Notes under the pieces: generated by a model | The model's database searches: none | The model's input: the letters and a program-made list of their open reading frames with translations, nothing else | What the model was told of the DNA's origin: nothing | Program-made: the position numbers and the translations under genes | Shown: one piece after another, positions 73-24,402 of the stretch | How positions within the stretch are numbered: the stretch's first letter is position 1 | How the letters are laid out: each line of letters opens with the position of its first letter | NCBI GenBank assembly: GCA_017429695.1 | Contig: JAFROK010000054.1 | Location: 54,566 to 118,565, forward strand | Length of the DNA stretch: 64,000 bases | Direction: 5' to 3' | DNA from: Clostridia bacterium | Lineage (GTDB): Bacteria > Bacillota > Clostridia > Christensenellales > Aristaeellaceae

Positions 73-1602
73 ATGAAAAAGTTCCTTGCTATGCTGCTCG
101 CGATGATCATGGTGCTGTCCGTATGCCTGGTTTCGGCTTCTGCCGAAGGCGACGCGAAAACCTATGACATCACCGTCTGGTGCCCCCAGGAAGCTGTTGA
201 GCTGACCCAGGCCCAGATTGACGACTTCAACACCGACAATGAATTCGGCATCACCTTCAATGCCACGATCGAGCCCGTTTCCGAAGCGGATGCTGCCACC
301 AGCATGACCACTGACGTGGAGACCGGCGCGGACATCTTCTTCTTCGCGCAGGACCAGTTTGCCCGCCTTGTGCAGGCCGGTGCGCTGTCCAAGCTGACGG
401 CTGAAGATGCTGCCAAAGTTGCTGCGGAAAACGACGTGAGCGCTGTTGCGGCCGCCACCTCCGGCGACGCGATGTACGCCTATCCGCTGACCGCTGACAA
501 CGGCTACTTCATGTACTACGACAAGAGCGTCATCCCGGAAGAGGATGTCGACTCCCTGGAAAAGCTGATTGCGGACTGCGAAGCGGCCCAGAAGTATTTT
601 GCCTTTGAAATGCAGACCTCTGCGTGGTATCTGGCTTCCTTCTTCTTCGCCACCGGATGTAAGTCCATCTGGACCACCGACAATGCCGGCAACTTCATCG
701 AAGTGTACGACACGTTCAACAGCCCCGAAGGCCTGATTGCCGCCAAGGGCATGAAGAAACTGGTGGATTCCCCCTATCATCTGAGCTCCTCCAAGGGCAC
801 TGAATTCGCCTCCGGCGCTGCAATCGTTGTGACCGGCACCTGGGACTTTGACAATGTAGCCGGCATCCTGGGCGACAACATGGGCGTTACCGACCTGCCT
901 TCCTTCGAAGTGGACGGCAAGGAATATCACCTGGGCTCCTTCAGCGGCTGCAAGCTGCTGGGCGTAAAACCGCAGGTTGACCGGGACAAGGCGGATGCGC
1001 TGCACGCGCTGGCGCAGTACCTGACCGGCGAAGACTGCCAGCTCGAACGGTTTGACGAGCGTCACTGGGGTCCCTCCAACCTGGCGGACCAGCAGGATGA
1101 AGAAGTCAAATCCAATCCCGGCCTGGTGGCGCTGTGGGCGCAGGCTCCCTACGCACAGGTGCAGGGCCAGATCCATGGCTCCTGGTGGGATATCGCCAAG
1201 GTCATCGGCGATGACGTGAAGGACGCGACGGACGAAGCGGGCCTGCAGGCTGCGCTGGATAACTACTACGACAAGATCGCCGGACTGTTCACCATGTCCG
1301 ATGCTGAGAAGTTCGCGTGGTCCGTTATCGGCATGTACAACGAAGCGGACGGCTTCTTCTTCACCGATTACTCCGATGGTAAGGAAACATGGACTGCTGA
1401 CCTGGCCATGATCCAGGACGGCGATGTCTGGAAGACCGAACAGGCCTATGCGATGCCTGCCGGCACTGAATTCAAAGTCCGTCAGGGCAAGAGCTGGGAC
1501 AATGCTTTCCCGGCTGACAACTTCAAGGTTGAAGCGGATGGCACCTACTTCATCCAGTTCACCGAATCCACGGGTACAGTTGAACTGGTCCCCGCTGAAT
1601 AA
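73..1602 (+). CDS. Maltose/oligosaccharide-type ABC transporter binding protein with C-terminal starch-binding-like module
   Basis: Extracytoplasmic solute-binding protein of 509 residues that should deliver a sugar to the permeases encoded next. It starts with a secretion signal (MKK, hydrophobic run, SASA cleavage site near residue 24) and has no good lipobox, since LSVC lacks a small residue before Cys. Residues 25 to about 410 resemble group-1 sugar-binding proteins. The last 96 residues (414-509, FAWSVIGMYN onward, with EFKVRQGKSWDNAF and DGTYFIQF) look like the beta-sandwich modules of SusE/SusF or X25 starch-binding type, which is unusual on a binding protein. An AAGGA site precedes the ATG. 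A hairpin after the stop probably lowers expression of the downstream permeases. The sugar is not proven; maltodextrin is inferred. Confidence 0.85.
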   Translation: MKKFLAMLLAMIMVLSVCLVSASAEGDAKTYDITVWCPQEAVELTQAQIDDFNTDNEFGITFNATIEPVSEADAATSMTTDVETGADIFFFAQDQFARLVQAGALSKLTAEDAAKVAAENDVSAVAAATSGDAMYAYPLTADNGYFMYYDKSVIPEEDVDSLEKLIADCEAAQKYFAFEMQTSAWYLASFFFATGCKSIWTTDNAGNFIEVYDTFNSPEGLIAAKGMKKLVDSPYHLSSSKGTEFASGAAIVVTGTWDFDNVAGILGDNMGVTDLPSFEVDGKEYHLGSFSGCKLLGVKPQVDRDKADALHALAQYLTGEDCQLERFDERHWGPSNLADQQDEEVKSNPGLVALWAQAPYAQVQGQIHGSWWDIAKVIGDDVKDATDEAGLQAALDNYYDKIAGLFTMSDAEKFAWSVIGMYNEADGFFFTDYSDGKETWTADLAMIQDGDVWKTEQAYAMPAGTEFKVRQGKSWDNAFPADNFKVEADGTYFIQFTESTGTVELVPAE

Positions 1603-1712: not shown

Positions 1713-3686
1713 ATGACTGATCAGGTGCAAACTGCCAAGGCCCCGAAGGTCCAAAGGGATACCGTTCTGCGTGTTCTGCTGGCCCAGGTGGCGGTGGCGC
1801 TGTGCTGCCTGCTGGCCTGGTTCCTGTGCGAAAACGTGGTGCAGAAACAGTATTCCGATCCGGTATACAGAACAGAGCTGAAGCTGATGGATCCGCTGTT
1901 CAACAGCTCCGGTGTTCTGAAAAAGGACGGGGTGCTGGATCCGCTGAAATATGACAAGATTAAAAGTGCCATCGGCGACAAGGAATTCTACCAGAAGATT
2001 ATGCATACGCTGGATCTTTACACGGAGAAGGAACTGACGCCGGGACGGATTATGGAGCGGACCAGTTGGGGGTACAGTCCGGAAGATCCGTCGAATCACA
2101 CGATTGTCATCGACGTCACATTCAGCGAGGAAGAGACCGCCCGGAATATCGGCAGTGAGGCGGCAGCCGGTGTAAACGCTATCCTGATGAGCGTGAATGA
2201 AGTGCCGGTCAAAACCGACTGTAAGACCACCTACATCGGGCAGATTACGGAACCGGTACGGACCGGCCCGAATACCCTGCTGTGGGTGATCGTTGCCGGC
2301 CTGATTGCGGAAGGCATATTTGTGACGATGGCCTTCCAGACCGGCTGGAAGAACAAGGTCAACTGCGTGATCATGGGCTTTGCCAATCTGAGCCGGGGCC
2401 AGATCATGCGGGGGCTGCTGTTCCTTGTGTTTGAGATCGTTTTCTTCGGGTTTATGATTCTCTGGGGTATGGAAATGCTGAGCAAGCTGACGACGCTCGG
2501 CACATATGCGCAGGAGTCATTCTCGGAGCTGCCCGGGGTTCGTGAGACGGCACACCCCGCGGACAATTCCTTTAAGATTCTGCTCTACGGCGTGCTGACG
2601 ATCTTCTTTATCATTGCGTTTATCTATACCTATTATGTCAATATCAAGCAGGGACGCATTATTGCAAAAATCGAAGCATCCGGCAAAAAGCTGAAGAGTG
2701 CGAAGGATGACCTGCGTTCCCTGGTGGACGACCAGTTCCACCGGACGCTGCTGACGCTGCCGGTACTTGGCATTACGCTGTTTACGGTGATGCCCATTAT
2801 CTTCATGGTACTGATTGCGTTTACCAATTACAGCAGTACGAACGACGGCATTACGAACCTGTTTGAGTGGGTCGGCCTGAAGAATTTCAACCAGCTGGTG
2901 GTATGGACTTCCGGCGGATCCGGCAATAAGACGTTTATGGCGACTTTCGGCGAGATTCTGGCCTGGACGCTGATCTGGGCGTTCTTCGCCACGTTCACCA
3001 ACTATTTCCTGGGCATGTTTGTCGCCATGGCCATCAATAAGAAGGGCATAAAATTCAAAAAGGGATGGCGGACGATCCTGGTGCTGACCATCGCTATTCC
3101 GCAGTTTATTTCCCTGCTGTACGTATCCAAGGCATTTGCCAATAATGGCCTGATCAACCTGTTCCTGCAGGAGATGGGATGGATCAAGGAACCGATCAAG
3201 TTCTGGGATGAGCCGATGCTGGCACGGATCACCGTCATCGGCATCAACATCTGGATCGGCATTCCGTACCTGATGCTGATTACAACCGGTATCCTGATGA
3301 ATATTCCGGCGGACCTGTACGAATCCGCCCGGATTGACGGCGCCAACCCGTGGCAGCAGTATACCAAGATCACACTGCCCTATATGTTGTTCGTGACCGG
3401 TCCGTATCTGCTGACCAGCTTTACGGGAAACATGAACAACTTCAACGTGATCTACCTGCTGACAGGGGGCGGCCCGAACAAGAACGGCGCCTACAGCGCC
3501 GGCGGTGTTTCCGCCGGGGATACGGATCTGCTGATTACCTGGCTGTTCAAGATAACCCAGGGCGGAGAACATCAGTATTACCAGGCATCCGTAATCGGTA
3601 TTCTGGTGTTCCTGGTGGTGGCGATTATTTCCCTGGTAGTATATAATCTGCTGCCCTCCAATAAGAATGAGGAGGATTTCCAGTGA
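1713..3686 (+). CDS. MalF-type sugar ABC transporter permease with extended N-terminal region
   Basis: Membrane permease of the MalF family, 657 residues, against roughly 290-450 for most Gram-positive homologues. The ATG at 1713 follows AAAGGAG; an upstream in-frame ATG at 1635 lies before the hairpin and is less likely. After a first membrane segment (about residues 16-42) there is an outer domain of about 150 residues, then further membrane segments. The MalF core occupies the C-terminal 300 residues and includes the EAA loop (LYESARIDGANPWQQ) that contacts the ATPase. The stop overlaps the next start in a TGATG arrangement, so the two permeases are translationally coupled. Confidence 0.88.
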   Translation: MTDQVQTAKAPKVQRDTVLRVLLAQVAVALCCLLAWFLCENVVQKQYSDPVYRTELKLMDPLFNSSGVLKKDGVLDPLKYDKIKSAIGDKEFYQKIMHTLDLYTEKELTPGRIMERTSWGYSPEDPSNHTIVIDVTFSEEETARNIGSEAAAGVNAILMSVNEVPVKTDCKTTYIGQITEPVRTGPNTLLWVIVAGLIAEGIFVTMAFQTGWKNKVNCVIMGFANLSRGQIMRGLLFLVFEIVFFGFMILWGMEMLSKLTTLGTYAQESFSELPGVRETAHPADNSFKILLYGVLTIFFIIAFIYTYYVNIKQGRIIAKIEASGKKLKSAKDDLRSLVDDQFHRTLLTLPVLGITLFTVMPIIFMVLIAFTNYSSTNDGITNLFEWVGLKNFNQLVVWTSGGSGNKTFMATFGEILAWTLIWAFFATFTNYFLGMFVAMAINKKGIKFKKGWRTILVLTIAIPQFISLLYVSKAFANNGLINLFLQEMGWIKEPIKFWDEPMLARITVIGINIWIGIPYLMLITTGILMNIPADLYESARIDGANPWQQYTKITLPYMLFVTGPYLLTSFTGNMNNFNVIYLLTGGGPNKNGAYSAGGVSAGDTDLLITWLFKITQGGEHQYYQASVIGILVFLVVAIISLVVYNLLPSNKNEEDFQ

Positions 3687-6160
3687 TGAAGAAAAAAATC
3701 ATATTCAAGTCGCTGGCGGTTCTCGCCATCCTGGCAGGCATCGGACTGCTGACGATTTCCGTGATCGGCATTCTGGACGGGAACCATACCTATGACCTGT
3801 TCAAGAAGATTAATGTCGGAACGGCAAAAGTTTATGAAGACGTTGACAACAACGGCCTGGATGCAGTGAAAGATGAATACCGCGGTATCTATGCCGTGGT
3901 GGACCAGATAGACGGCCTCGGACTGGATTATGCCAGGGACTATCTGGAGGATACAGGCATTGTCTATGGCCTTGTGGACACCATTGAGGCAACGGGGACC
4001 GTTGCGGAATCGATCGGCAGGATCGGCGGTATCGATGAAGCCAGGCGGATCCTGGATGAAACAGAAGCTGCAATCGATGACGCGCAGAAAACCTATACCA
4101 TGATCTCCAGTGCCGGCATCGGTGAAGTAAGCTCCTATCTGGTGGACCTGGAAAGCGAACTTGACCGGGGAGAGGATGCGGAGACGGCCCGGCAGGCGCT
4201 GGACGAAAAATATGCTGAAGCGGATGAGAACACCGCCAAGCAGATCAAAGCGTTCCTGGACCTGGCTTTCAAAATGCTCGAAAGCAAGGGAAATGAAGGA
4301 ACGGTTCAGTACCTGAAGGAAGCGATTGATGCTGCTGACCTGACCTCCCTGGAATTTGCCCGGCAGAAGGTTCATGAGCAGATTGAAGCGCAGGGAGCTG
4401 AAAACGCGGACAATGTGCGTCAGTATGCGGATACGATTTTCCGGCTGGCTGTTGACCAGGGCAGCAGCGAGGAGGCCGTGAAATATATTGACGGTATGCT
4501 GACCCTGATGGAGCGCCAGGGCAGTATTGACGTCAAGGCATACCTGAATCAGGTGTACTCCGAGTCGAAAAAGGAGAACCTGTATAAGCGCGCGTACCTG
4601 GAGCGAATTTACCAGGCCATTGAATCCAACGGATTTGAGTTTGTCAAAGAGCACGGCTACGAGATCTGTGTGACCACCAATCAGGAGAACGCGGACCAGG
4701 TACATCAGTTCCTGAAACTGATCAATGATGCGCTTGGCGAAAAAGCGCCGGATGAGAACGATCCGATCGCGTGGGTGACCCAGTATAAAGAAGCCATCGA
4801 CGCGGCGGACAGCGTATCCGACGGACGGACCAACCGTTACCTGACCGACTTGTACGATGCGTATGACGACGCGGTGAAGGCGGTCGGCGGCAAGCGTGCT
4901 CCGAAAGAAAGCGCTGCAACGAAAATCCAACGGGCCATCCGGAGCGGAATCGAAAAGGCGGAAGCCTGTCCCGGACAGGATAAGCTGGATAAAGCCAAGG
5001 AATATCAGCGCGATATCTGGCAGCTGTTCAACCAAGTCGGAATGGAGAAGACGAAAAAGCATCTCAGTTACGCCTGTGTCAGCGCCATTACCGACAGAAC
5101 GCTGCGCATTGATGCGCTCGGAACCCGGAACGCGAAGCAGCTGGAAGACCTGACACCGGATATGCTTTCCCGGATTCGGGGAAAATCCCGGACGATGATT
5201 TTCGGCATCATCTGCCTGATTATCGGCATTGTGCTGATGTTCATCAGGCCGAGCGAAAATCTGCAGCCCAGGCTTTCCCGTGAACAGCGGAAGCAGGCTG
5301 GCCAGCATATGGGCCTGAAGACCTCCCGGGTTGTTGCCAATTCCCTGATTCACGCGCTGCTGATCCTGATCAGCGTGGTTTGGCTGATTCCTTTCATTTC
5401 CATCACGCTGCAGTCCCTGCGTGTGGAATCCACCTACCAGGTGGGCTATATCATGCCGGAAAAAGTGGGATTTTCCAATTATCTTGACCTGTTTGACACA
5501 TCCATATCCCGTTTCCCGACATGGTATCTGAACACCTTTATTATGGCACTGGTTGTGGCGGTGCTGCAGACACTGTTTGTCCTGTGCATGAGCTACACCC
5601 TGAGCCGCTTCCGCTTCAAAATGCGGAAACCGTTCATGCGGATCATGCTGATCCTGGGGATGTTCCCCGGTATGCTGTCCATGATTATTCTGTACAATGT
5701 GCTGAAGGATCTGAATATGATCCAGGAGAATGCGGTTCCCGGCCTGATCCTGGTGTATGTAGCTTCCTCCGGTATGGGGTACTACGTATCCAAGGGCTTC
5801 TTTGATACGATCCCGAAATCGCTGGATGAAGCGGCCCGGATTGACGGTGCCACCCGGCTGCAGGTGCTTTATAAAATCATCCTGCCTCTGGCCAAACCGA
5901 TTGTCATCTATACCGTGCTGACAGCCTTTATGGGGCCGTGGGGCGACTATGTATTTGCCAAATATGTAGCGGTCAATACAACGGAGGGCATGAACGCGGC
6001 CGTTGGTCTGAACACATGGTTGAGCGCGGACCAGATTGCGAAGCGCTATACCATGTTCTGCGCCGGCGGCGTACTGGTGGCCATTCCGGTTACGACACTG
6101 TTCATGTGCCTGCAGAAGTATTACGTTGAAGGCGTCACCGGCGGCGCAGTCAAGGGATAA
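3686..6160 (+). CDS. MalG-type permease fused to a large N-terminal helical domain
   Basis: The C-terminal 280 residues (from about 545) are a normal MalG permease with the EAA motif SLDEAARIDGATRLQ. In front of it is a region absent from ordinary MalG proteins: a membrane anchor (about 7-28), a charged helix-rich domain (about 30-495, probably outside the cell) and a second anchor (about 500-522). The domain appears to contain degenerate helical repeats, for example around FLDLAFKMLES, YADTIFRLAVDQG and YLERIYQAIES. The total is 824 residues, nearly three times normal. A GTG at 3683 is an alternative start; GGAGG at 3671-3675 suits either. No frameshift or stop separates the parts, so this is one polypeptide as read. 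The function of the extra domain is unknown. Confidence 0.85.
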   Translation: MKKKIIFKSLAVLAILAGIGLLTISVIGILDGNHTYDLFKKINVGTAKVYEDVDNNGLDAVKDEYRGIYAVVDQIDGLGLDYARDYLEDTGIVYGLVDTIEATGTVAESIGRIGGIDEARRILDETEAAIDDAQKTYTMISSAGIGEVSSYLVDLESELDRGEDAETARQALDEKYAEADENTAKQIKAFLDLAFKMLESKGNEGTVQYLKEAIDAADLTSLEFARQKVHEQIEAQGAENADNVRQYADTIFRLAVDQGSSEEAVKYIDGMLTLMERQGSIDVKAYLNQVYSESKKENLYKRAYLERIYQAIESNGFEFVKEHGYEICVTTNQENADQVHQFLKLINDALGEKAPDENDPIAWVTQYKEAIDAADSVSDGRTNRYLTDLYDAYDDAVKAVGGKRAPKESAATKIQRAIRSGIEKAEACPGQDKLDKAKEYQRDIWQLFNQVGMEKTKKHLSYACVSAITDRTLRIDALGTRNAKQLEDLTPDMLSRIRGKSRTMIFGIICLIIGIVLMFIRPSENLQPRLSREQRKQAGQHMGLKTSRVVANSLIHALLILISVVWLIPFISITLQSLRVESTYQVGYIMPEKVGFSNYLDLFDTSISRFPTWYLNTFIMALVVAVLQTLFVLCMSYTLSRFRFKMRKPFMRIMLILGMFPGMLSMIILYNVLKDLNMIQENAVPGLILVYVASSGMGYYVSKGFFDTIPKSLDEAARIDGATRLQVLYKIILPLAKPIVIYTVLTAFMGPWGDYVFAKYVAVNTTEGMNAAVGLNTWLSADQIAKRYTMFCAGGVLVAIPVTTLFMCLQKYYVEGVTGGAVKG

Positions 6161-6298: not shown

Positions 6299-7426
<1,128 letters not shown>

Positions 7427-11173: not shown

Positions 11174-12538
11174 TTACACATGGTTGCGGGGGTCACTGGC
11201 GTCGGAGAACGCGTTGCCCACCAGATAGAATGTGATGGTGATGATCGAAACAATGATCGCCGGGAAGACCAGCATATAGGGATAATTCATAAACACGTCG
11301 CGGGCGTCGCGCAGCAGGTTGCCCAGGGACGGTTCCGTGATATCCATCAGGCCCAGGTAGGTCAGTGTGGTTTCGTAGGCAATCGTGGAGGGGATGGCCA
11401 GGGCCAGCCGCAGGATGATGACGCTGATCAGATAGGGGAAGATATTGCGGAACAGCACCCGGGGAAGGGAGGTTCCGAGACAACGGGAAGCCAGGTTATA
11501 TTCCCGGTCGCGGTACATAAAGACCAGGTTACGGACATTCCGCGCGGTGGCCAGCCAGCCGAAGAGCACCAGCGCAACGCCGATGGTCCACAGTGTTTTG
11601 CCCACCATGAGGGCGATCAGGGTCAGGTAGATAATGGTCGGGATATTGTCGATCAGGTTGTACAGCTCCGTAAAGAAGCGGTCCAGCTTGCGGACATACC
11701 CCCAGATGAGGCCGATAATCACACCCAGCAGGATCTGCGCGGCGGAAACCAGCACGGCCAGCAGGATCGACTGGCGTGTTGCGTGCCATACCTGCGCCCA
11801 GTAATCCTTGCCGTTGCCGGTGGTACCGAACCAGTATTCGTTGTTCCAGTAAAAATTGCCGATGACCCGGCTCCACATGCTGCGGCCGGCCAGTTCCTCG
11901 ACGCGGGTGTTTTCCGGAATCTGTTCCGCTTTGGCAATGGCGGCGGCGCGGTCTTTCGCGTATTCGTCCGCCAGCACCACTTTGGCGTACCCCTCCGGGC
12001 TTTCATCGAAGCGTTTGTCGAGCAGGCGGTAGGTGCGAACCTTTTCCGGAATGGCCTTGGCCTGGTCGATGGCAGCGGCGGGGTTTTCAGCGTAGAGGGT
12101 GCTCAGCTTGGCTTTGGCATAGCCTTCGGGGCTGGGATCGACGCTTTTGTATGCTTCGATAAAGGAGTTGGACTGAACAGGCGCCATATCCCACTGATAC
12201 TTGCCGATGGCGCTTCCGATGAAGGTGAAGGCAAACAGCAGCAGGAAAATAACGGACATGGTAACGGCGGATTTCCGTTTCAGGAAATTGGCCCAGACGC
12301 TGCGCCAGTAGGAGTAATTGGAGTAGCCGGTACGTTCGGCATCCTGGGCACGGTATTCGGCAAACTCGAACAGCTGATCCTCCGGCATATCCCGGCGGCT
12401 GTTGAGCCATGCCCGGCCCTTGGGGCGCTCCTGATGGGGATCCTTTTCAAACTTGTTCGGATCAACCGTAAAATCGACGACAGGAGACTCCAGTTCCTGT
12501 ACCGTCTTCTGAATGTTCTTTGCTTTCTTGCCGGACAT
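11174..12538 (-). CDS. oppC: OppC-type peptide permease with duplicated insert
   Basis: Peptide ABC permease of the OppC/AmiD type, 454 residues against a usual ~300. The core has a first membrane segment near 92-112 and a permease domain from about 255 to the end. Between them is an outer loop of about 140 residues containing a tandem duplication: [10 protein letters not shown] at 136 and [10 protein letters not shown] at 180, each followed by a YA-x(4)-AAAI-x(2)-A-x(2)-IPE pattern, with a period of 44 residues. The start overlaps the oppB stop (TGATG). The insert is of unknown function and probably lies outside the cell near the binding protein. Confidence 0.88.
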
Positions 12539-14283
12539 CAGCGTACGCCCTCCTTTCCGGTCAGCTTGATTCTCGGATCAATCAGGGTCATCAGCAGGTC
12601 ACCCAGGAAGACGCCGATGATTCCCAGGGAGGCATACAGCATTACGATGCCCTGGACCAGGGGCAGATCCAGCTTGGCGATGGAATTGGTCAGCATCGGC
12701 CCCATGCCCGGGATTCCGAAGAAACGCTCCACCAGCAGGGATCCGCCGACGGTCAGCAGGATTGAATAGGGCAGGTACTGCGCCAGCGGGACGAAGGCGT
12801 TCTTCAGCACGTGGCGGAAGAGTACCTTGTGTTCCGGCAGGCCTTTCAGGCGGGCCAGGCGGATATAGTCCTTGTTCAGCTCATCCACCATGTAGCGCCG
12901 TGTCCAGAGCATGTAGCCGGCGATGGAGCCGATGGAAAGGCAGACGACTGGCAGGATCATGGAACGCCATGAATCGGCCCCCGCATTGGCGTCGTACTGC
13001 ATGGGAACCTGCAGCAGCTTGCTGCCGAGCACCATGATGAGCGTATAGATGACCAGATGGGGCACAGCGTTGACCAGCACGGTATAGCCGGTGCCGATAT
13101 GGTCGATAATGCCGTTCTTGAACTGGGCTTGCAGTACGCCGAAAACGACGCCCAGCACCAGTGAGAAAGCCAGGGAGATCAGGCCGACGGTCAGGGAAAT
13201 GCCCATCTTGTCCTGGATGATATCGGTGACATACTGGCCTTTGGATTCCCGCAGGCTCTTGCCGAGATTGAAGACCACCCGGGTGAAATCTCCGGTTTCG
13301 GGATCCACAGCGCCGTCGAAGGGATCCTCTCCCCGGATTTTTGCCAGCAGGTAAGGAATGGCGCCGACGGGCGTGACATCCGGCTTTTCAATTTCATAGG
13401 TATCGGTATGGGTCGTGATGAGCTGAACCGGCATATCAGCCACGTCGCCCTGCACCACATCGGACGCTTTGACCTCGACTGTATCATCCGCGGGGATCGT
13501 AATGGATACCTCGTGGCCGCCGAGGTTTTCGGTACGCGTATAGGAGGTGCCGTCCTCGCTCAGGTTCTTTTTCTTTTTGATGGAAGAAGTCTGGAATGTC
13601 TTCTCGCCAACCTTGATGGTGATGATGTCCCCCCAGTGGAAAACATGGTCCGGATCTTCGGAAACGGTCATCGGATCGTCGTTGATGAGCTGCGTTTTCT
13701 TTTGATAGACGCGGACCTGGAACAGATCGAGGTAGAAATCTCCCAGCTGGGCCAGAACGGACCGGCGGACGTAACCGGGACCGGGCGTCGCATAAGCATC
13801 GTCAGCCGCCGGGCGCTTGGATTTGACGGCCAGCGTGGCCTGGTCGGCACAGGTCGGGCAGGTGCGGGCTGCCAGCGGCCCGTTTTTCTGTTTGTACAGC
13901 TTTTTCAACAGCGATACCGCTTCAGCGGAAAGGCCGGTCAGTTCTCCGTCGGCATCCGGCGTAAGTCCCTGCAGGAGTTTCACATCCGCTGCGGTGAGGT
14001 TATACGGAAGCGCGCTGCTGTCCGGGTCCAGGGCGGTGATTTCCGCGGCGCCTTCCGCGGTGAACCGGTAAATCAGGCCGGCGGTACCGCAGGTGCTGCA
14101 TTTTTCCATCAGGCCCTTGGACGCCAGGCGGTCGTACTTCTGCGCTTCTGTCAGTTTAATCTGTTCATCGTCCGTGAAGAAGTTTTCCATCGGCATCATG
14201 CGGATCAGGATGAAAACGACGCTGACGACCAGCAGAATCGTCAGGAGGGACTGGAACAGGCGTTTGATGATATATCTGACCAT
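12538..14283 (-). CDS. oppB: OppB-type peptide permease with large insert carrying two CxxC pairs
   Basis: Peptide permease of the OppB/AmiC type, 581 residues (simple OppB is about 310; streptococcal AmiC, about 500, shows that inserts occur). The first membrane segment is near residues 8-29 and the permease core resumes at about 360. The roughly 325-residue outer insert contains CSTC (62-65) and CPTC (142-145), a spacing pattern like a zinc ribbon or paired disulfides, then a beta-rich stretch. The core carries DYIRLARLKGLPEHKVLFRH, the ATPase contact loop. The insert probably faces the binding protein. Confidence 0.88.
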   Translation of the reverse strand: MVRYIIKRLFQSLLTILLVVSVVFILIRMMPMENFFTDDEQIKLTEAQKYDRLASKGLMEKCSTCGTAGLIYRFTAEGAAEITALDPDSSALPYNLTAADVKLLQGLTPDADGELTGLSAEAVSLLKKLYKQKNGPLAARTCPTCADQATLAVKSKRPAADDAYATPGPGYVRRSVLAQLGDFYLDLFQVRVYQKKTQLINDDPMTVSEDPDHVFHWGDIITIKVGEKTFQTSSIKKKKNLSEDGTSYTRTENLGGHEVSITIPADDTVEVKASDVVQGDVADMPVQLITTHTDTYEIEKPDVTPVGAIPYLLAKIRGEDPFDGAVDPETGDFTRVVFNLGKSLRESKGQYVTDIIQDKMGISLTVGLISLAFSLVLGVVFGVLQAQFKNGIIDHIGTGYTVLVNAVPHLVIYTLIMVLGSKLLQVPMQYDANAGADSWRSMILPVVCLSIGSIAGYMLWTRRYMVDELNKDYIRLARLKGLPEHKVLFRHVLKNAFVPLAQYLPYSILLTVGGSLLVERFFGIPGMGPMLTNSIAKLDLPLVQGIVMLYASLGIIGVFLGDLLMTLIDPRIKLTGKEGVR

Positions 14284-22488: not shown

Positions 22489-24402
22489 ATGAGTGAAATG
22501 AACAACAAAGAACTCAGAAAAAGCACTCCCGTGACCATCCAGGCCGATGAAAACCAGATGGCGCTGGACGACGGCCGCCGGGTGAAAGTCCTTTCTCCCG
22601 GAATGATGGTTTTCAAGCGTTTTATCCGGAATAAGCTGGCTATCGCGGGCATCTGTATCCTGGTCTTTATGTTCGCGTTCTCCTTCCTCGGCGGATTGAT
22701 TTCCCCCTACGGCGAGGCGCAGGTTTTCCATAAGACGGACTCCGCCAACAAGGAACTGGCGGATTCCGAGATCAACAAGACCTTCCGCTTTTATGATATG
22801 GACGGCGGGAACGCGACATATGATATCCGGACCAGCTTCCAGAAGGGGATCGGCAAAAATCCGGACGGATTCTCCTTTACAGCGGGCAGCAATACCTATG
22901 TTGTAGAGAAACTGGGAGAGGATTTCTATACCATCAGCGGGAACATTGAACTGGGAACGGTCAAAGTTTCAGCAGGCGAAGAAACCGCGTTTGTGCCGGC
23001 TGACGGGCAGGAAGTTGCCGATGAGCTGGCGGCTGCGGCGGTTGCGGCTGTGGCGGGCGATCAGGGCGCGAAGCCGGCCCTGCCGGCAATCAGCAAACCC
23101 GGTGCCAAAACGGTCAAAAAGGACGTGACCTTTGATTGGGAAGGCGCGACCTATACGCTGAAGCCGTCCGACACAGGATCTGACTACACCCTGCTGAGTG
23201 AGCCGCGGGAATTTGCGGTGGCCAGCAAACTGAGGGTATTTGCCTTTGACGAACAGTATTCAGCGCTGACATCCGATTATAACTTCCGGAGGAGCAGCGA
23301 GCTTGCGCTCCGCAGCGTTGAAGCGGATACTGACGCGGACGGCAATGCGTATTACCCGATCCAGGCCTTCACCTATATTGGGGAAGACGGCGTGGAAACC
23401 GAATACCGCATGAAGAAGATCGACGAAGCATACGGTATCGTTGAGGATATTCATGAAGAAGAAATCCTGAGCGTCAGCAACTTCTTCGTTTCCCCCTATT
23501 ATCCGGACGTCCGGTTTACCCGGGAATTCTGGGAAGCGCTGAAAGCGGGGATTGCCGGAAGGCAGACAACGTTTGAGTTTGTCAACAGCGTCGGCGAGAC
23601 GGAGAAATACGACCTGATCAAAAAGGACAACAACGACAACAACTACACGATCAAAACAGGCCAGGATACTTACCTGATTGACGCCTTTGCGTCGCCTACC
23701 AGCGAACACTGGCTGGGTACGGACGAGCATGGCATGGATGTACTGACGCGCCTGATGTACGGCGGCCGGATCTCCCTGATGGTCGGTTTTGTCGTTATGA
23801 TCCTGGAGAATATCATCGGTATCATCGTCGGCGGTATCTCCGGTTACTTCGGCGGCTGGGTGGATACGCTGCTGATGCGCTTTGTGGATCTGTTCAACTC
23901 GATCCCGTACTATCCGATGATGATCATCGCCGGCGCGATCATGGACAGCTTCGACGTGGACGCGAAAGTCCGGCTGTACCTGATGATGGCCATCATGGGT
24001 ATCATGGGCTGGACCGGCGTGGCCCGCGTGGTCCGCGGCCAGATCCTGTCCCTGCGTGAGCAGGAGTTTATGGTGGCCACGGAGGCAACCGGTATTCCGG
24101 TTTCCCGCCGGATCTTCAAGCACCTGGTACCCAATGTGATGCCGTTGCTGATCGTTCAGGCAACCATGGGCCTGGGCGGCATCATCCTGACCGAGGCGAC
24201 GCTGAGCTTCCTGGGCCTGGGCATCAAGTACCCGCTGGCCTCCTGGGGTTCCATCATCAACGCGTCTTCGGATATGTACGTGATGACCAACTGCTGGTAT
24301 GTGTGGATTCCGGCCGGCCTGCTGATCGTGCTGACGGTGCTTGGTTTCAACTTTGTCGGTGACGGTTTGCGGGATGCCTTTGATCCCAAGATGAAGCGGT
24401 AA
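22489..24402 (+). CDS. oppC: OppC-type peptide permease with ~330-residue repeat-bearing insert
   Basis: Peptide permease of 637 residues, twice the usual OppC. The first membrane segment is near 52-73 and the core resumes at SEHWLGTDEHGMDVLTRL (about 405). The outer insert contains four similar beta-hairpin-like units near residues 128, 213, 294 and 362, all following F-x-F or F-x-Y, three to five residues, Gly, then Y-x-L/V and a closing Y-T/G-I/L. An Ala-rich linker (AAAAVAAVAGD) lies between the first and second. No known domain was recognised. The core keeps REQEFMVATEATGIPVSR for ATPase contact. Confidence 0.88.
   Translation: MSEMNNKELRKSTPVTIQADENQMALDDGRRVKVLSPGMMVFKRFIRNKLAIAGICILVFMFAFSFLGGLISPYGEAQVFHKTDSANKELADSEINKTFRFYDMDGGNATYDIRTSFQKGIGKNPDGFSFTAGSNTYVVEKLGEDFYTISGNIELGTVKVSAGEETAFVPADGQEVADELAAAAVAAVAGDQGAKPALPAISKPGAKTVKKDVTFDWEGATYTLKPSDTGSDYTLLSEPREFAVASKLRVFAFDEQYSALTSDYNFRRSSELALRSVEADTDADGNAYYPIQAFTYIGEDGVETEYRMKKIDEAYGIVEDIHEEEILSVSNFFVSPYYPDVRFTREFWEALKAGIAGRQTTFEFVNSVGETEKYDLIKKDNNDNNYTIKTGQDTYLIDAFASPTSEHWLGTDEHGMDVLTRLMYGGRISLMVGFVVMILENIIGIIVGGISGYFGGWVDTLLMRFVDLFNSIPYYPMMIIAGAIMDSFDVDAKVRLYLMMAIMGIMGWTGVARVVRGQILSLREQEFMVATEATGIPVSRRIFKHLVPNVMPLLIVQATMGLGGIILTEATLSFLGLGIKYPLASWGSIINASSDMYVMTNCWYVWIPAGLLIVLTVLGFNFVGDGLRDAFDPKMKR

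Follow-up and report, generated by a model that had tools for sequence, protein, structure and literature searches.

How might a bacterium without an outer membrane keep a binding protein that carries no lipid anchor near the channel it serves? Binding proteins of Gram-positive bacteria are normally lipid-tethered, according to PMC11212667, and the question is raised here by an ABC importer encoded in a 64,000-nucleotide stretch of DNA from a member of the Clostridia, analyzed as a whole and called the window below. In this importer, the MalG-type permease carries a large extra domain in front of its permease core, and such a domain, fused to the channel itself, is a candidate answer, open to direct testing on just a few proteins. 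The genes lie on the forward strand in the order binding protein, MalF, MalG, ATPase. They encode a solute-binding protein of 509 aa (SBP_bac_8; 73..1602) with an AxA-type signal peptide without a lipobox; a MalF-type permease of 657 aa when read from the ATG at 1713 (1713..3686), or 683 aa if a GTG at 1635 is used; the extended MalG-type permease of 824 aa (3686..6160); and a MalK/UgpC/MsmX-type ATPase (6299..7426), which scores 473.8 bits with NCBIfam PRK11650 (cut-off 432).

A membrane-anchored domain in front of a complete MalG-type core

The reading frame at 3686-6160 (+) runs through 824 residues without a stop, and its similarity to known permeases lies at its C-terminal end. The NCBIfam MalG model spans residues 552-824 (7.7e-38), the Pfam domain BPD_transp_1 is found at residues 641-814 with 73.8 bits against a curated cut-off of 26.4, and the EAA-type loop EAARIDGA occupies residues 715-722 inside the core; the protein therefore has both the domain above cut-off and the loop by which a CUT1 / BPD_transp_1 permease of the MalG type is recognized. 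In a search of PDB sequences, residues 554-824 align with residues 15-296 of E. coli MalG, which argues that the permease core (residues 541-824; 5306..6157, +) is complete within the last ~285 residues, close to the last ~280 proposed in an earlier note on this DNA. Against the maltose MalG equivalog (NCBIfam PRK10998) the protein reaches 130.7 bits, under the curated cut-off of 261, and the name MalG is to be read at the family level only.

Ahead of the core lie a first membrane helix (TM1, residues 12-30; 3719..3775, +; Kyte-Doolittle mean 2.67), a domain of 471 residues (31-501; 3776..5188, +) and a second membrane helix (TM2, residues 502-520; 5189..5245, +; mean 2.59), which bears out the membrane-anchored extension of ~540 residues that the note had described. 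The note had also placed the domain outside the cell next to the binding protein; the charge pattern and the helix parity agree with the outer placement, and a position beside the binding protein is plausible. The segment before TM1 (residues 1-11) has four Lys and lacks acidic residues (4 and 3 Lys/Arg in the two orthologues described below), the domain itself is strongly acidic, and in the 36-residue loop that joins TM2 to the core, 7 residues are basic and 2 acidic (6/2 and 6/3 in the orthologues). The N-terminus of the E. coli MalG core lies on the cytoplasmic side (2R6G), and with the core N-terminus inside and two helices in front of it, the domain between these helices is placed outside the membrane. 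Three to five basic residues immediately before TM2 are mildly contrary to the positive-inside rule and count against this topology; taken together, the signals place it outside rather than in the cytoplasm.

The fusion is shared by three genomes and probably arose once

Relatives of the locus were collected by scanning for four exact peptides of the window extension and two of the core; 399 were found and 80 kept, and a scan of this kind would miss diverged extensions sitting on diverged cores. A bare MalG of 287-303 residues is encoded in 76 of the 80. The survey, which the earlier note had called for, brought up the same extension in two further loci, L010 (isolate RUG10690; 918 aa, in a frame of 919 residues) and L011 (RGIG6780, from sheep rumen; 881 aa, in a frame of 882). 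The remaining two, L072 (448 residues) and L088 (455 residues), have longer MalG frames with an N-terminal part unrelated to the window extension. In this pair (L072:7515-8861 and L088:7515-8882), an N-terminal membrane part is fused at about the same site and the starts are almost identical; that of L072 matches DUF5684 slightly under cut-off.

In the genus, a MalG relative at E 1e-60 or better occurs in 35 of 45 genomes, and the frames among the matches listed measure 292-320 residues, the window's own excepted. In the order sample, 166 of 396 genomes have a MalG match at E 1e-20 or better; among the matches listed, the 829 open-frame residues of the window are the longest, followed by 600 residues at 33% identity, and a few relatives at 42-75% identity have 479-546 residues. 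The fused cores form one clade with support of 100/97 in a tree of 93 rows that leaves out 17 of the 29 genus loci, and a quickly built tree of 110 rows, in which all 29 are included, still recovers the clade as exclusive (SH-aLRT 96). Considering that the three fused proteins fall into one clade, the fusion probably arose once.

The junction between malF and malG (3669..3688, +) consists of a ribosome-binding-like GAGGAGGA and a TGATG stop/start overlap, and the window reads GAGGAGGATTTCCAGTGATG where malF ends and malG begins. When compared with 13 other loci, the TGATG overlap was found in L010, L011 and seven extension-free loci, with TAATG instead at the other four, also extension-free; the bases preceding the overlap are identical or nearly so across all 13. 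This shared junction indicates that the extension sits directly behind the native start codon of malG and uses its translation signal. It also bears on whether the domain is in truth a separate gene, joined to malG by an assembly chimera or a missed stop. All three genomes are drafts, given that the window genome is in 60 contigs and the records of L010 and L011 are titled as MAGs, and to that extent an artefact is conceivable. However, the frame has no stop, and the same fusion with an identical junction type is present in three separate assemblies, making an assembly error unlikely. The separate-gene form was sought in the relatives and none was found directly upstream of malG: a multi-helix frame in the malF position adjoins malG directly in 79 of the 80 fetched loci, with L045 left unresolved and with some frames truncated where a contig stops. 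We therefore regard such an artefact as extremely improbable.

Free-standing versions of the domain were looked for more widely, by profile searches of overlapping samples of 45 genus, 396 order, 391 class and 398 phylum genomes, which gave no accepted homologue. Beyond the window genome, these searches returned weak matches only, in G016 (E 0.0042) and in G204, G367, G560, G853 and G926 (E 1e-3 to 3e-6). The frames of the first five were judged unrelated by eye and rejected as homologues, and the match in G926 covers the same model range as the one in G853, in a frame of nearly the same length. Searched with a single sequence, 61 genomes (that of the window and 60 relatives) yielded a match in the window's own only, and a search of plasmids and viral contigs gave zero matches. 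Judged by sequence, the outer domain forms a family of which three members have been found to date.

The outer domain is a putative helical repeat under protein-level constraint

The description of the domain as helix-rich with degenerate internal repeats, made in the note from the sequence alone, was supported. Hydrophobic periodicity over residues 31-500 peaks at 100 degrees, with a z of 5.7 (6.7 and 5.4 for the two orthologue domains), and is under chance at 160-180 degrees, where z is negative. The domain (residues ~31-501) has 58 basic and 90 acidic residues, and residues 31-500 include five prolines and three cysteines. Nine instances of a degenerate 20-residue motif are spread over residues 49-463 (3830..5074, +). 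The motif, of the type hhxxhxxxGxxxAxxYLxxh, has a central glycine and an A-x-x-Y-L pair, and its spacing is often, not always, close to multiples of ~19. It scores 11.9 against a shuffle maximum of 6.1, and motifs of the same type score 13.8 versus 6.9 and 20.8 versus 11.2 in the two orthologues, so that none of the 60 pattern-preserving shuffles made for each protein reaches the real score. A cruder self-comparison of the window domain was borderline, at 28.4 against a 95th percentile of 27.3 and a maximum of 34.1 in 200 shuffles of 11-residue blocks. From these patterns we infer a helical-repeat fold, either solenoid-like or a bundle.

A family search of the domain, also suggested in the note, returned no convincing match to Pfam, NCBIfam or PHROG, and none was found among PDB entries, where the sole match to the extension up to E 1 was at E 0.39. 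Weak Pfam and NCBIfam matches were scattered, each coming from a single one of the three members, and TPR, Sel1, HEAT and other Pfam helical repeats were absent from the matches listed to E 1 for all three. The extension opens a new repeat-rich sequence family to structural work.

Divergence has been quicker in the outer domain than in the core. Identities in the domain are 175/525 (window/L010), 233/532 (window/L011) and 254/585 (L010/L011), or 33-44%, and over 282 core positions they are 222, 231 and 246 for the same pairs, or 79-87%. An extra coiled-coil-like stretch of ~60-70 residues in L010 and L011, and a Pro/Ala/Glu-rich linker of 44 residues in L010, are both missing from the window domain. 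Codon differences over the extension are highest at third positions, at 0.57 and 0.61 for the two pairs that include the window and 0.53 for L010 with L011, with first- and second-position differences of 0.34-0.46 over the three pairs (for the window and L011: 0.34, 0.37 and, at the third position, 0.57). This identifies the extension as coding sequence under protein-level constraint, and the combination of such constraint with fast divergence and indels suits an interaction surface rather than an enzyme. The same evidence bears on another explanation, namely that an accidental fusion joined a membrane-anchored helical protein to malG, where it is now tolerated with little function. While the presence of the fusion in three genomes only and the fast divergence of the domain would be expected in that case, the fusion has stayed intact and in frame across a divergence that takes the core to 79% identity, third codon positions vary most, and the repeat motif and both membrane helices are retained in all three proteins, so that we consider an accretion of little function quite unlikely.

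The operon probably imports galacto-oligosaccharides

A GH53 galactanase gene (PF07745, 2.6e-118), which also carries an Ig-like Big_4 domain, ends ~130 bases ahead of the window start and gives the operon the neighbor that is characteristic of Gan importers. Each of the three fused loci has a GH53-type motif close to the operon (tested with Pfam for the window gene only), as do 19 of 78 other fetched loci, although many of the latter do not extend far enough to reveal one. Its presence near all three fused operons argues for an importer of galacto-oligosaccharides rather than of maltose, and the GH53 gene together with a binding protein of the GanS/MalE type suggests a Gan-like importer, although the binding protein, at 55.8 bits, falls far short of the cut-off of 700 of the GanS model itself. 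The system is thus probably a Gan-like galacto-oligosaccharide importer. Maltose specificity, which we also considered, was not accepted as proven, with the MalG and MalE models under cut-off and GH53 next door. An alpha-amylase gene lies on the opposite strand further upstream of the operon, and the closest solved structure to the binding protein, 4ua8, is annotated solely as a CUT1 carbohydrate-binding protein; for these reasons, starch sugars may still be the substrate. The C-terminus of the binding protein (window 1396-1569, +) has a weak match to pullulanase X25 (E 8e-4, under cut-off).

The outer domain as a possible docking platform

The start of the binding protein could be read in 55 of 81 operons (the window included) and not in the other 26. 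With the lipobox defined by a fixed pattern lying in signal-peptide residues 12-32, we counted one in 29 of the 55, of which one (L018) is doubtful, and none in the other 26, among which are the binding proteins of the window, L010 and L011. That of the window operon appears to be unanchored. In the 45 genus genomes, LpxC was found in none and LspA in 41, the window's own included, so that these bacteria can probably make lipoproteins and are unlikely to make LPS. Among close relatives (L010-L089, L151), binding proteins vary between lipobox-plus-linker and plain secreted forms, and by eye the GH53 enzyme does so as well in some loci.

The anatomy of the extended MalG is well supported; from it and from the operon context we infer a function. 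Tentatively, and as a possibility that we hold to be somewhat short of probable, we propose that the outer domain is a docking platform at the channel mouth of a CUT1 oligosaccharide importer. A MalG-type subunit with TM1, an extracytoplasmic alpha-helical repeat domain and TM2 in front of a complete core would catch or hold the apparently unanchored binding protein, and perhaps also the co-encoded galactanase, so that oligosaccharides freed at the surface could reach the channel before diffusing away. Its action would be like that of the MalE-binding MalF-P2 loop of E. coli, yet the domain is not that loop. In favor of docking we count the topology, the fusion in three genomes that form one clade and the helical repeats; the lipobox-free binding protein in all three fused operons, next to the LpxC and LspA counts; and the GH53 motif near all three operons, along with outer segments on other permeases of the same genome. 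Counted against it are the 23 of 26 lipobox-free operons with a bare MalG, which shows that a binding protein can be unanchored where MalG has no extension, and some permeases of the window genome that lie near lipobox-free binding-protein-like genes and have no extension. Loss of the lipobox as the cause of the extension was rejected, the association not being exclusive.

The domain could also act without touching the binding protein, as a stalk or a scaffold for polysaccharide or enzymes, extending into the wall or capsule to organize galactan breakdown. The Big_4-bearing GH53 gene directly upstream of the window operon and the GH53 motif in all three fused loci would fit such a role, as would helical repeats with a coiled-coil-like insert that is present in L010 and L011 and not in the window, but family searches detected no carbohydrate-binding family in the domain, which is moreover carried by the channel subunit and not by a free surface protein. 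We rate this as unlikely, though not far-fetched. Distinctly improbable in our view is a sensor, in which the domain would read the loaded binding protein or the state of the envelope and tune the ATPase through TM2: no known sensor family was detected in the domain and the extension is missing from nearly all orthologues examined, even if TM2 and the basic linker do connect the domain to the core and the E. coli importer is known to be auto-regulated by MalE (PMC3328499).

Outer segments on other permeases of the same genome

The window genome has 37 BPD_transp_1 matches in 36 frames, 15 of which are open for at least 450 residues, in a list that was picked automatically, includes a few antisense frames and serves as a guide only. 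The causes of the long frames are mixed: in one the permease domain occurs twice, in another it is fused to a binding domain, and some have extra membrane helices. Several carry long outer segments. Permeases of contigs C47 (823 aa) and C8 (626 aa) have N-terminal helix-domain-helix modules, in those of contigs C48 (524 aa) and C20 (528 aa) a long insert follows the first helix, and both Opp systems within the window also have permease inserts.

Within the window, an OppB-type permease (12538-14283, -) has a ~340-residue insert behind its first helix, with two CxxC pairs (~13843-14100) despite its expected location outside the cell. One OppC-type permease (11174-12538, -) carries an outer insert with two similar stretches starting SPEGYAK, and another (22489-24402, +; 637 residues) has an outer insert of ~360 residues. 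A 522-aa protein of contig C18 (L188) combines a permease with an SBP_bac_3 binding domain and a lipoprotein-like start.

The window MalF has helices at residues 21-39, 189-207, 235-253, 286-304 and 351-369, and its long loop, between the first two, forms an outer N-terminal segment (residues 40-188; window ~1830-2276, +). This segment weakly resembles that of the C8 permease (E 4e-4), a protein that itself matches Wzz below threshold (E 0.0032), and the MalF start of L010 and L011 differs from that of the window. In a blastp comparison of 12 segments of the same genome, the MalG domain was not similar to any other, its best E being 0.3. Given how varied these segments are, outer modules on permeases seem to have been gained repeatedly in these bacteria. 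A bolder reading, which we find doubtful, is that ABC permeases of this gut Clostridia lineage, in which LpxC was not found in the genus genomes and many binding proteins look secreted and lipid-free, repeatedly and independently gained unrelated outer domains, as N-terminal helix-domain-helix modules or as loop inserts, that serve as binding-protein receptors replacing the lipid anchor. The MalG extension, whose helical-repeat fold would be new, would then stand as the most elaborate example, and MalG1/MalG2 of the Thermotogales would be a convergent instance.

Comparison with known systems

The earlier note knew of no MalG architecture like this one, and on that point it has to be corrected. 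As described by Noll et al. 2008 (PMC2246101), the MalG part of Thermotogales MalG1 and MalG2 is formed by the C-terminal 300 residues, and the N-terminal 525 residues include a hydrophilic region of ~500 residues between TM1 and TM2, which is stated there to be absent from every other MalG. The window protein has the same plan, a core preceded by ~500 hydrophilic residues between its first two helices, and resembles the published Thermotogales form; the likeness is one of architecture, and the Thermotogales belong to another phylum than the window's bacterium. Their MalF has a large loop of the enteric type, inserted between helices 3 and 4 (PMC2246101), which is not seen in the window MalF. 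Literature searches, covering open-licence papers, found no description of this MalG architecture for Clostridia, and the unexplained Thermotogales domain thereby gains a second lineage to compare.

Large outer domains on ABC membrane subunits are also known from the BceB/MacB type, where the domain lies within the subunit and not in front of it, and which belongs to another permease superfamily. Permeases of the GlnPQ/OpuA type are fused to a substrate-binding domain and likewise have an extra outer domain, with the protein of contig C18 as the case within this genome; unlike these, the MalG extension matches no binding-protein family. We know of no extension on GanQ of B. subtilis. In its gene content, the operon is like B. 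subtilis GanSPQ-GanB with MsmX, sharing a binding protein, two permeases, GH53 and an MsmX-type ATPase (PMC5730181). With MalFGK2-MalE of E. coli, it shares the CUT1 importer type and a large extracytoplasmic permease part that plausibly lies, as in E. coli, beside the binding protein. That part, however, is on MalF in E. coli, as the ~180 residues of MalF-P2 between helices 3 and 4 (PMC2246101), whereas in the present importer it belongs to MalG, precedes a complete core and has a helical-repeat character.
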